Positions 10,952-25,460 of a DNA stretch of 27,341 bases are shown here, one piece after another. This stretch comes from Candidatus Zixiibacteriota bacterium (lineage in GTDB: Bacteria > Zixibacteria > MSB-5A5 > GN15 > PGXB01). The translations under genes were made by a program, and so were the position numbers. Every line of letters begins with the position of its first letter. Position 1 is the first letter of the stretch. Under the pieces are notes generated by a model. It saw only the letters and a program-made list of their open reading frames with translations. It was not told the DNA's origin and made no database searches. The stretch spans positions 1,959,812 to 1,987,152 of the forward strand of contig LS998015.1 in the NCBI GenBank assembly GCA_900498245.1, in the 5' to 3' direction.

Positions 10952-11941
10952 ATGAACTATTCGACATCTGTTCTCGAAATCATTGGCAGGACACCGATGG
11001 TGAAAATCGGCAACGGCCGCGCCGACGGCGGTCCGCTCATGCTGGCCAAATTGGAATTTTTCAACCCCGGCGGCTCTATCAAGGATAGGATGGCCAGTCA
11101 TATTCTGCAGAAAGCCGTGAAGGAAGGAAAATTGAAAAAGGGGGATACTGTCATCGACAACTCTTCCGGCAACACCGGCGTCGCCATGGCCATGGTGGCG
11201 TCGATTCTCGGATTGAAAGCGATTGTTACGGTTCCGGACAAGACCAGCAAGGAAAAGGTCGATTTGATCCGTTCCTACGGCGCCGAAGTAATCGTGACCC
11301 CGTCCGATGTCGATCATGAAGATCCCCGCGGATGTTATATGACCGCCATCAATCTGGCCAAAGAGCACGGCTATTTTCACATGAATCAGTATCATAATCA
11401 GGATAATGTCATGGCCCACTATCTGACAACCGGGCCGGAAATCTGGCAGGATACGGAAGGGAAAGTCACCCATTTCGTGGCCGGAATCGGGACCGGCGGG
11501 ACATTCTCCGGCACCACCCGCTACCTGAAAGAAAAAAAACCGTCGCTCCTGGCCGTAGCGGTCGATCCGGTCGGATCTATTTTCGCCGAATATATCAAGA
11601 CACGGCGTGTCGGACATGCCGAGGCCTATAAAATCGAAGGTATCGGCTCGGATACCGTAACCGAAGCGCTGCATCCCCAACTGGTCGATGATGTGATCAC
11701 CGTGAAGGACGGCGATGCCTTTGAAACCGCCCGCGAATTGGCCCGCCGTGAGGGGATTTCGATCGGCGGTTCGGCCGGCGGCGCGATCTGGGCGGCCCGG
11801 AAGGTGGCGGAAAAACTCACCAAAGATGATGTTGTGGTCGTCATTATTGCCGATTCCGGAACCCGTTACTTAAGCAAATGCTTCAATGATATCTGGATGA
11901 AAGAACAGGGATTTTTGAAGGAGACCCCGGAGGTTTTATAA
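10952..11941 (+). CDS. PLP-dependent cystathionine beta-synthase / cysteine synthase family enzyme
   Basis: Fold-type II PLP enzyme of 329 residues. The Schiff-base lysine is K44 in PGGSIKDRM; the substrate loop is SSGNTG at about 71-76 and the phosphate-binding loop is GTGGT at about 180-184. Details match cystathionine beta-synthase better than CysK: the YHNQDNVMAHYLTTGPEIWQ block, VDPVGSIFAEY, YKIEGIGSDTV, and the end DSGTRYLSKCFNDIWMKEQGFL. It would condense serine (or activated serine) with homocysteine, or with sulfide. No C-terminal CBS-pair regulatory domain is present, as in most short bacterial forms. AAGGAAA precedes the start. The DUF1573 gene starts one base after the stop, so the two are co-transcribed. 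Distinguishing CBS from O-acetylserine sulfhydrylase needs an assay. Confidence 0.9.
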   Translation: MNYSTSVLEIIGRTPMVKIGNGRADGGPLMLAKLEFFNPGGSIKDRMASHILQKAVKEGKLKKGDTVIDNSSGNTGVAMAMVASILGLKAIVTVPDKTSKEKVDLIRSYGAEVIVTPSDVDHEDPRGCYMTAINLAKEHGYFHMNQYHNQDNVMAHYLTTGPEIWQDTEGKVTHFVAGIGTGGTFSGTTRYLKEKKPSLLAVAVDPVGSIFAEYIKTRRVGHAEAYKIEGIGSDTVTEALHPQLVDDVITVKDGDAFETARELARREGISIGGSAGGAIWAARKVAEKLTKDDVVVVIIADSGTRYLSKCFNDIWMKEQGFLKETPEVL

Positions 11942-11942
11942 A

Positions 11943-12638
11943 ATGCGATTATTGGTAAAGACTGCGACAACATTTGCGATTCTGTTTGCTTTTCTGACTG
12001 TGCCCTCTCCGGGCCAATCCCGAGGTCCATCCTTGGCGATCGATTCCCGCTCCTTCGATTTCGGCTCGGTGCCTTCGGACTTCCGCATAATCCACATTTA
12101 TAAAGTGCGGAATACCGGGGATGAAACCCTTCATATTTCCAAATTGGAACCGAATTGCGATTGTACTAGCGCTTCCATCGCCGACACTCTCATTCCTCCG
12201 GGAGGTTCTTCCGATCTCAGGCTGACTTTCGTAACCCGGGATTATTATGGCACTACGAGTAAGAAGTTGGCCATTCGCTCCAATGACGCCCAGAATCCGG
12301 TATTTGAAATCGAGTACCTGGCCAATATCGATTATTTTCACAAATTGCACACGTCCGACCCCAAATATTTGACTTTCCTTCAGGGGCAATTTGATAAGCC
12401 GGTTAAATTGATCAACGGGGCATCGGAATCCATCGGATACACTCTTTATAAAGAACCGGATACCATCTTCACCATTGACAGAGAATCGGGGAAAATAAAT
12501 GCCGATGGCAGCGAAATTCTGAATATTGCGGTGAACAAGAATCTTCGTCCCGGTACATTTTACACCAATTTCACGGTCACCTATGACACCAATCCTCCTC
12601 TTCGTCTGACAATCCCGGTCAAGGTGGTCCGTTTCTAA
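11943..12638 (+). CDS. Secreted DUF1573-domain protein
   Basis: Protein of 231 residues with a signal peptide (about residues 1-26, hydrophobic core ATTFAILFAFLTV) and a DUF1573 domain at about 31-115. The family pattern is clear: IDSRSFDFGSVPSD, YKVRNTGDETLHISKLEPNCDCTSA and IPPGGSSDLRLTF. DUF1573 is an Ig-like/ASH-related fold common in FCB periplasmic and surface proteins. The C-terminal 110 residues look like a second beta-sandwich (ESGKINADGSEILNIAV, LRLTIPVKVVRF). The start follows the upstream stop by one base, so translation is coupled. The reason for pairing with a sulfur amino-acid enzyme is not obvious. Function is otherwise unknown. Confidence 0.85.
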   Translation: MRLLVKTATTFAILFAFLTVPSPGQSRGPSLAIDSRSFDFGSVPSDFRIIHIYKVRNTGDETLHISKLEPNCDCTSASIADTLIPPGGSSDLRLTFVTRDYYGTTSKKLAIRSNDAQNPVFEIEYLANIDYFHKLHTSDPKYLTFLQGQFDKPVKLINGASESIGYTLYKEPDTIFTIDRESGKINADGSEILNIAVNKNLRPGTFYTNFTVTYDTNPPLRLTIPVKVVRF

Positions 12639-12756: not shown

Positions 12757-12785
12757 TTGACAACGATTCTGAATTTTTTGATAAT
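12757..12785 (+). promoter_or_regulatory. Promoter of the putative small RNA
   Basis: Perfect TTGACA (12757-12762), 17-base spacer and GATAAT (12780-12785, five of six consensus bases). No plus-strand protein gene follows; the transcript would start near 12792 and run straight into a structured, T-terminated segment. Confidence 0.75.
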
Positions 12786-12791
12786 TTGAAT

Positions 12792-12871
12792 CTAACGAGG
12801 GTGACTCTCTGCTGTCCCTGGGTAGTTTCCTAGCCCCCTCTACCCAACCAGAGTAGCACCCTCTTTTATTT
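12792..12871 (+). ncRNA. Putative orphan small RNA (about 80 nt)
   Basis: The segment behind the promoter folds into one long interrupted hairpin. The base stem pairs 12797-12803 with 12857-12863 (GAGGGTG/CACCCTC). After a two-base bulge, 12804-12808 pairs with 12850-12854 (ACTCT/AGAGT). A top stem of seven pairs joins 12819-12825 to 12840-12846 (TGGGTAG/CTACCCA). The 14-base loop 12826-12839 is pyrimidine-rich and ends in a C run. A T-rich tail (TTTTATTT, 12864-12871) follows the base stem directly, as in an intrinsic terminator. No open reading frame of any size fits. It is not 6S RNA, SRP RNA or a riboswitch I know. It faces the 3' end of rtcB, so it could also be antisense to that mRNA's trailer. 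The call rests on promoter, fold and terminator only. Confidence 0.6.
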
Positions 12872-16781: not shown

Positions 16782-16853
16782 AGGCGGCTTCCGGAATCGA
16801 ACCGGAGAATAGAGGTTTTGCAGACCTCCGCCTTACCGCTTGGCTAAGCCGCC
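16782..16853 (-). tRNA. tRNA-Cys (GCA)
   Basis: Read on the minus strand it folds as a full cloverleaf: seven-pair acceptor stem GGCGGCT/AGCCGCC, anticodon loop CTGCAAA with anticodon GCA, T-arm with GGTTCGATTCC. The discriminator base is U, an identity element for cysteine tRNAs. The 3' CCA is not encoded; a T-rich stretch follows at once and probably ends the transcript. It lies eight bases behind tRNA-Gly. Confidence 0.97.
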
Positions 16854-16856
16854 ATA

Positions 16857-16934
<78 letters not shown>

Positions 16935-23294: not shown

Positions 23295-23417
23295 CCGAAG
23301 CCCCTATGCTTTGGCCTAAGATTATGATAATTCCCGTGTTACCGTCCGCCGAAAATCCGGCATCCCCTTTGCACCAATGAAATCGGAAAATAAAATTTTT
23401 AACTCCTTGGGGGAGAT

Positions 23418-25460
23418 ATGGACGAGAAAAATACCGTTGTCAGACGACGGCCGCCGAAATCGCGCCTGATCGAATCACCTCTATTTATCTACGGACTGAA
23501 ATTCGCCATCGGCTTCGTGGTCGTCCTCATCTTTTTAACCCTGACCCAATGCACCATCAATAAACCGGAATCACCGAGTTGGAGCACCCATTTGACCCTG
23601 CCTCTCGTCAATAAAACCTACGAGATGCCGGAAATTATCCGCCGTATCGATCAGCCGGGATTGTCTCTCGATTCCAGCGGCGACGTCATGTTTACGGTTG
23701 ATAAAGATCTGGATACCGTGCGTGTATCGGACAACCTGTCAACATCCGATATTACAGTCGGAGCCGGCGAGACCCTCGGTGATGTCGCCATCGCGCCGCC
23801 GTCGCCGGACCCGCTGACCGTCGCTCTGGCCGATTACACGACCCTGAACCTCGGCGCCGTGCCACCCGGTTCTTTCGATATCCAGCAGGATTATCCTCCT
23901 GTTGATAATTATTCCTGGGCAACCGTGGCATCCGGAACACTGGCCCTTAACATCGAAAACAATTTCGGGGTCGATCTTGATACCGTCATCGTGCAACTTT
24001 ACGATATTGTCTATTCCCGGATTGTATCAACGAATTTCCTCCCCGCTCCCGGCCTACCGAGCGGCGGAGCCGAGACTCTTCTGGTGGACCTCACCGGTCA
24101 GACCATTTCGAACTCTTTCCGCCTGAATATCCACTGCCATACACCGGGCGGCACCATGCTATCTCTGTCAGACAAGTCAATGACCGCCGGTCTGGCGTTC
24201 AGCGACGGCCTGAATGTCTCCGCGGCGCAAGCGGAGATACCCCAAATCGTGAAAGATTTCTCCCAGAACGTTGTCCTTTCGGAAAATAATACCATAATGA
24301 CGGCTCAGCTTTCGAGCGGCAATCTGGCCCTCGATATCGCCAATCGGACCAATTTAACCAGCCATGTTCAGATAACCCTGCCCGATTTCAATCAGGGCGG
24401 TGTTCCCTACTCAACAAATGTCGCGGTCAACCCGCAAAGCAGCGGCACCGTAAATATAAATCTCGCCGATTATCTTTTCGAGCCGGCCGACCAGACCAGT
24501 CCCCAAAATATCGGTCTGGAGGTTCATGCCATTATTGATTCCACGGCTCCCGGCATGGTAACCGTCAGCCAGACCGACAGCGTCAGTGTTTCGGCCTCGG
24601 TCAGCAATCTTCAATTCCGGACCATGACCGGAATCATCGATTCCACCGAGGCGAGTTTCGACGGTATCCAGACTTCTATAGATTTGCCTAAAGGATTTGA
24701 CTCTCTGCAATTGGTAAGTGCTGTCCTGACGCTGGAAATAGCCAATGCTGTCGATTTCCCGGGCGGTCTGAATATCACTCTGGAGGGTAACAATGGCCGC
24801 ACCCTCAATTTGAGCGGACCGGTTTTGGCCGGCTGTTATGATAATCCAATTGTTTCCGTCATTTCCAATAGCGACCTGGCCTCTTTCCTTAACCCCGTCC
24901 CGTCAGCCATCACCGTTCATGGCTCGGCTTATTTCGGCGATGGCGTCACGGTCGGAACCGTCACCGCGCAGGATTATGTCGCCTCTCATGTTCATATCAG
25001 TTCACCCCTGGAAGCGGTCATTGGTCAGACCACTTTTGACGGCGATATGGAGTCGAATGATGTCAAGCAGGATGATATCGACAAAATCACCGACCATGTG
25101 CTGGAAGCCAATTTCCTCGCCACGATAATCAACCACCTGCCCCTCGGGGTGACGGCCGAAATATATCTCAGCGGCGACTCTTCCACCCTCTATACCGACC
25201 CGCAGTTAGTCATCGGCCCGATTTCTGTCGATGCCGGCGTCACTGGACTTCTTCATACCGTCGACAGCGCCGTCACCAGCGAAAATATTATCGCTCTCGA
25301 CAGCGCCGATATCCAGATCTTGAAAAATCCGGTCATTTACTCCGGACAGGTGATTACTCTGAACGGTACCGACGGTCAGCCGGTCAAGGTTGTCGGCGAT
25401 GATTATGTCACCGCCCGCGGCGTCATTCAGGTGGAATACCACTTCGACGGTAAGTTTTAG
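23418..25460 (+). CDS. Large membrane-anchored, beta-rich surface protein
   Basis: I do not recognise a named family. The 680-residue product has a basic N-terminus (VVRRRPPKSR), a hydrophobic segment at about 26-43 and then a cysteine at 45 (LTLTQC), which could be a lipobox with an unusual Q before the cysteine; otherwise the segment is a signal anchor. Just after it, SPSWSTHLTLPLVNKTYEMPEII is a start I associate with FCB surface lipoproteins. The rest is low in charge, rich in S, T, D, N and V, and reads as repeated beta sandwiches. The start has GGGGGAGAT directly upstream. The barrel protein gene follows nine bases after the stop, with a near-identical GGGGGAGATT site, so the two are co-translated. 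A partnership at the outer membrane is inferred from this. Confidence 0.85.
   Translation: MDEKNTVVRRRPPKSRLIESPLFIYGLKFAIGFVVVLIFLTLTQCTINKPESPSWSTHLTLPLVNKTYEMPEIIRRIDQPGLSLDSSGDVMFTVDKDLDTVRVSDNLSTSDITVGAGETLGDVAIAPPSPDPLTVALADYTTLNLGAVPPGSFDIQQDYPPVDNYSWATVASGTLALNIENNFGVDLDTVIVQLYDIVYSRIVSTNFLPAPGLPSGGAETLLVDLTGQTISNSFRLNIHCHTPGGTMLSLSDKSMTAGLAFSDGLNVSAAQAEIPQIVKDFSQNVVLSENNTIMTAQLSSGNLALDIANRTNLTSHVQITLPDFNQGGVPYSTNVAVNPQSSGTVNINLADYLFEPADQTSPQNIGLEVHAIIDSTAPGMVTVSQTDSVSVSASVSNLQFRTMTGIIDSTEASFDGIQTSIDLPKGFDSLQLVSAVLTLEIANAVDFPGGLNITLEGNNGRTLNLSGPVLAGCYDNPIVSVISNSDLASFLNPVPSAITVHGSAYFGDGVTVGTVTAQDYVASHVHISSPLEAVIGQTTFDGDMESNDVKQDDIDKITDHVLEANFLATIINHLPLGVTAEIYLSGDSSTLYTDPQLVIGPISVDAGVTGLLHTVDSAVTSENIIALDSADIQILKNPVIYSGQVITLNGTDGQPVKVVGDDYVTARGVIQVEYHFDGKF

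Follow-up and report, generated by a model that had tools for sequence, protein, structure and literature searches.

The gap in front of rtcB in a 27,341-nucleotide stretch of a Candidatus Zixiibacteriota genome (the whole stretch is called the window here) raised the question of whether it carries an independent small RNA gene and, if so, how such an RNA could act. The original prediction described a self-contained, unclassified small RNA gene with a consensus promoter, an 80-base segment folding as an interrupted hairpin and a T-run at its end. All these elements were borne out by conservation, by compensatory changes in the stems, and by a promoter and T-run that are conserved as well (Table 1).

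Promoter, fold and compensatory changes

The segment 12792-12871 folded as one interrupted hairpin with a predicted energy of -30.0 kcal/mol (z of -4.6), and none of 200 shuffled sequences was as stable. TTGACA-17-GATAAT sites were found four times against 2.1 expected, and a single site of this type is not significant on its own; in 60 of 69 orthologues, however, TTGACA lay no more than 70 bases before the stem, as against 2% of shuffled sequences. The start of transcription was probably at about 12792. In the window sequence the hairpin stem was followed by TTTTATTT, and the hairpin, whose loop exceeds 8 bases, was for that reason absent from the list of a simple terminator scan. The further claim that no plus-strand gene exists for several kilobases was correct downstream, where credible genes are concerned, but not upstream, where cysK-DUF1573 forms a plus-strand operon.

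Table 1. Features of the predicted small RNA gene, its upstream neighbour and its candidate target (positions in the window).
Feature	Position	Strand	Remarks
cysK-DUF1573 operon	10952..12638	+	Constant upstream neighbour of the main copy
Putative promoter (TTGACA, 17 bases, GATAAT)	12757..12785	+	11/12 consensus matches; sigma-70-type
Predicted small RNA gene	12797-12871	+	Predicted length ~72-80 nt; located in the gap before rtcB
Structured body of the small RNA	12797..12863	+	Fold, conservation and compensatory changes
Basal stem, 5' side (GAGGGUG)	12797..12803	+	Pairs with 12857-12863 (CACCCUC); 97.4% of cells paired; double changes at 7/7 pairs
Middle stem, 5' side (CUCUCUG)	12805..12811	+	Pairs with 12849-12853 and 12855-12856
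5' internal loop (CUGUCCC)	12812..12818	+	Second C-rich patch; at least partly single-stranded
Apical hairpin (UGGGUAG-loop-CUACCCA)	12819..12846	+	Stem 12819-12825/12840-12846; 93.3% of cells paired; double changes at 7/7 pairs
Apical loop (UUUCCUAGCCCCCU)	12826..12839	+	14 bases; the family's fixed element; nearly invariant among 70 main copies
T-run, putative intrinsic terminator tail	12864..12871	+	At least 5 of 8 bases are T in each of 69 orthologues
Candidate target site (GGGGGAGAU-AUG)	23393..23420	+	Start region of the 680-aa protein gene 23418-25460; GGGGGAG ribosome-binding site

Compensatory changes were analysed in an alignment of 78 diverse copies, which was fitted to the covariance model and takes in one antisense hit (L019, + strand). 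Changes on both sides were observed at all 21 base pairs, with 232 double-change cells (57 in shuffles, and 43 or fewer in slid controls), and 91% of the cells were paired at the true structure but only 43-55% at slid structures. Despite the fitting and the antisense hit, this signal was far above the slid controls. A MAFFT alignment of the main copies, with double changes at 5 pairs (11 cells vs. 2.3), pointed in the same direction. An independent small RNA gene, with its own predicted promoter, a conserved structure with compensatory changes and a putative intrinsic terminator, is supported by these sequence comparisons, and we regard the gene as almost certainly real.

Distribution, neighbours and constant loop

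A 151-base segment matched 35 of 40 related genomes, and in most of these 35 nothing beyond the RNA was matched. The check suggested with the original prediction (relatives, a covariance model and compensating changes in the stems) gave a positive answer: the first covariance model, made from main copies, and the second one, made from diverse copies, were positive in 108 and 110 of the 132 Candidatus Zixibacteria genomes, respectively, the latter covering 17 of 19 families, with the double changes described above. These models detected no copy in family f19 (seven genomes) or f8 (a single genome), nor in some near-complete genomes of the phylum. The core was 96-100% identical among families f1, f2 and f4 of the order and 90% identical in f7; in the same comparison rtcB DNA was 66-79% identical where a long stretch could be aligned, and the flanking gaps hardly aligned. 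A degenerate 24-base pattern, searched in 84,980 species genomes, gave 70 loci, mostly in Candidatus Zixiibacteriota, and those assigned elsewhere were, where compared, the same contigs as in genomes of the phylum. There was no spread outside the phylum at this pattern level, and viral contigs and plasmids gave zero matches. As far as searched, the RNA family thus appears confined to Candidatus Zixibacteria, as judged outside the phylum by pattern search alone.

Five candidate copies were found in this genome: the window copy and those at 130,756, 150,736 and 2,850,134, found by the models, and a degenerate fifth copy at 141,734. The region G000:C1:139175-150815 (L152-L153) contains three tyrosine recombinase-like genes and possible defence genes together with two of these copies (150736, intact, and 141734, degenerate). 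In some divergent families the RNA gene occurred in tandem pairs with about 200-290 bases between them (L192, L194 and L204). An apparent extra paralogue lineage (L214 and L215, also in G008, G011 and G014) had a variant loop (in L214 of the UCUCCUAUCCCCU type) and was preceded by a TTGACA of its own.

The main copy was located downstream of cysK-DUF1573 in about 60 loci and was syntenic across most of the order and beyond, whereas rtcB was its right neighbour in only about one third of cases. In divergent families the RNA followed a histidine kinase-response regulator operon or faced a PHP-domain gene (domain names as read from the sequence). In one group of paralogues a protein kinase-type gene lay about 200-300 bases downstream (L036, L071, L089, L217 and L222), another paralogue followed a GAF-sigma-54 activator gene (L103), and some had a same-strand gene 100-300 bases downstream. 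A functional link with rtcB was rejected and its adjacency considered incidental, because cysK-DUF1573 is the constant neighbour and the divergent families and paralogues have others; its suggested antisense relation to rtcB read-through is likewise taken as incidental. Elsewhere in the window, two tRNA genes lie side by side on the minus strand (16782-16934).

The apical loop and the apical stem were almost invariant in the alignment of the 70 main copies. A C-run of at least five bases was present in the folded apical loop of 124 of 129 distinct aligned sequences (antisense hit included), and [UC]CC occurred in the 5' internal-loop region of 109 of the 129 distinct copies. Loop changes were mostly C-U transitions, with C5/C6 variation also tolerated; most of them would be harmless to pairing with purines, since C-U transitions keep such pairing. 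Paralogues retained the apical hairpin and swapped the remainder (e.g. GGCAG-loop-CUGCC and UGAGAG-loop-CUCUCA), and their lower stems were wholly different yet complementary. Several family members carry the identical seed, unpaired, on stems that are unrelated to one another, as would be expected of an alpha-r14- or LhrC-like mode of action. At the level of sequence, the comparisons establish a predicted gene, its structure and a family of several copies whose stems are exchangeable and whose loop is fixed, in genomes without recognisable Hfq: the Hfq model PF17209 matched 0 of 132 genomes of the phylum and 5 of 14 control genomes.

Known families and candidate targets

No Rfam 15 family reached its curated gathering threshold at the RNA in the window or in 20 loci with divergent copies, in agreement with the claim that it belongs to no known family, and a permissive Rfam scan gave only chance matches elsewhere in the gap. 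The Rfam 6C model did not match at the gathering score or at E values up to 10, and literature searches for RNAs of this phylum returned no report of this RNA. We consider the small RNA family to be real and new, of a kind already known and probably regulating by antisense pairing through its C-loop.

Three systems resemble it. The 6C/B11 RNAs of Actinobacteria also carry C-run loops; one target, eccB4, carries six consecutive G in the 5' UTR (PMC10470900), and they are described as independent of RNA chaperones in that article and in the title of a paper it cites (Mai et al. 2019). They have two C-rich loops, whereas the Zixibacteria RNA has a single apical C-loop and a C-rich internal loop (two hairpins with C-run loops were not found), lacks an Rfam match, belongs to another phylum and exists in several copies with exchanged stems. 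The alpha-r14 sRNAs (NfeR1 of Sinorhizobium) comprise several members with an ultraconserved unpaired seed and highly different stems, and pair with translation initiation regions (PMC10746234). The fixed unpaired seed, the stems differing in sequence and the several family members are common to both, but the alpha-r14 seed is CCUCCUCCC in three hairpins and that of the Zixibacteria RNA is UAGCCCCCU in one, a sequence that differs from a plain anti-Shine-Dalgarno. LhrC of Listeria is multicopy and Hfq-dispensable, with redundant UCCC motifs in loops and single-stranded stretches, and the mRNA of a surface protein is bound by it at a G-rich ribosome-binding site region (PMC4132741). The Zixibacteria RNA is likewise multicopy, with C-rich motifs in a loop and an at least partly single-stranded patch, but LhrC has two hairpins and five copies, and no sequence relation was found between them (no Rfam match).

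Pairing of the C-rich loop with Shine-Dalgarno sequences, as the original prediction proposed, is at present the best candidate mechanism, on indirect evidence: one strong, conserved candidate site with five G (G5) was seen, and no general enrichment of complements. The complement of the full loop was found only at the RNA's own genes and was at chance level elsewhere; loop duplex energies were not enriched at the ribosome-binding sites of 400 genes, drawn from about 12% of this genome, and AGGGGGCT was not enriched before ATG in 15 genomes. The G5 ribosome-binding site of gene 23418-25460 was present in all 11 family sequences whose start could be read (from ten genomes, two sequences being from G013) and in 31 of 63 sequences order-wide, against a background of 11 of 344 for this genome and 2 of 298 for order-wide loci (0.7-3.2%), all counted with one start-picking rule and slightly different search ranges. 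A binomial figure computed for these counts disregards relatedness and does not serve as a probability. The computed duplex between the loop and the 23418 leader was about -13 to -16 kcal/mol, with 5 or 6 loop bases paired. Three genomes in which no RNA was detected (G024, G050 and G087) nevertheless kept G5 at the orthologue. The gene was picked after its G-run had been seen and its orthologues are not independent, so the site is a lead and not proof; we consider 23418-25460 the first candidate target. Its 680-aa product gave no Pfam match and may be located in the membrane or envelope, as read from a hydrophobic N-terminal segment. A second G5 gene, 25470, was rejected as a target, its G5 being lost beyond the genus.

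Alternative readings and proposed mode of action

By analogy with 6C/B11, LhrC and alpha-r14, we regard as the most likely mode of action, with moderate confidence, an antisense repression in which the loop's C-run works independently of a chaperone. A fixed loop on freely changing stems would fit a protein site equally well, and the RNA might instead bind protein, its loop being a dock for a cold-shock, KH or S1 type protein that it sequesters or directs. We consider this unlikely, if far from negligible: the whole main-copy body is highly conserved and no conserved full-length complement was found, but the loop tolerates the transitions and C-run variation described above, one conserved G5 ribosome-binding site does exist, and a sponge would be expected to offer more than a single loop per RNA. 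CsrB-type RNAs sequester or direct CsrA; a CsrA sponge was rejected because the loop lacks GGA. The conservation would also suit a housekeeping RNA of the phylum, such as a regulator of RNA polymerase or the ribosome replacing 6S RNA, and the Rfam 6S model (RF00013) matched none of 21 genomes, nor the window. This reading is improbable, as the RNA is only about 80 nt long and has no large central bubble of the 6S kind (6S RNA itself was set aside), several divergent copies occur per genome, and it was not found in f19 or in some near-complete genomes.

A hairpin with a T-run downstream of cysK-DUF1573, and paralogues at a short distance upstream of same-strand genes, could also be mere terminators or attenuators of the upstream operon or downstream gene. 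A conserved promoter between operon and hairpin, a fixed loop, conservation far above terminator level and the presence of the RNA in unrelated neighbourhoods make this very improbable. The multicopy state and the two copies within the stretch of recombinase-like genes would be expected of a mobile or attachment-site palindrome spread by recombinases, but the synteny of the main copy, the conserved promoter and T-run, the completely different stems of the copies and the lack of matches in viral contigs and plasmids leave this the least credible reading of all.

Under chaperone-independent antisense repression, the long interrupted hairpin would present the fixed, C-rich apical loop, accompanied in most copies by a C-rich internal loop; the C-run would nucleate pairing with G-tracts at the ribosome-binding sites of a limited number of mRNAs. 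No chaperone would take part, and translation would be blocked. Through paralogues that differ in promoter and neighbours, different signals may reach the same seed. Transcription, pairing, repression and targets are all what we infer for this RNA. Tentatively, and with considerably more doubt, it could be a phylum-defining regulator without Hfq, in which a fixed C-loop is set on exchangeable stems beside two-component systems, Ser/Thr kinases and envelope genes, and signals would converge through the shared seed on mRNAs with G5 sites, or the loop would dock a new RNA-binding protein.

For a non-coding gene, the small RNA is exceptionally conserved within this large, uncultured phylum, and with a fixed loop and exchangeable stems it keeps seed and scaffold very cleanly apart. 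As Hfq is missing too, it would be an independent and directly testable case of chaperone-free regulation by a C-loop, with a candidate target 10.5 kb away.
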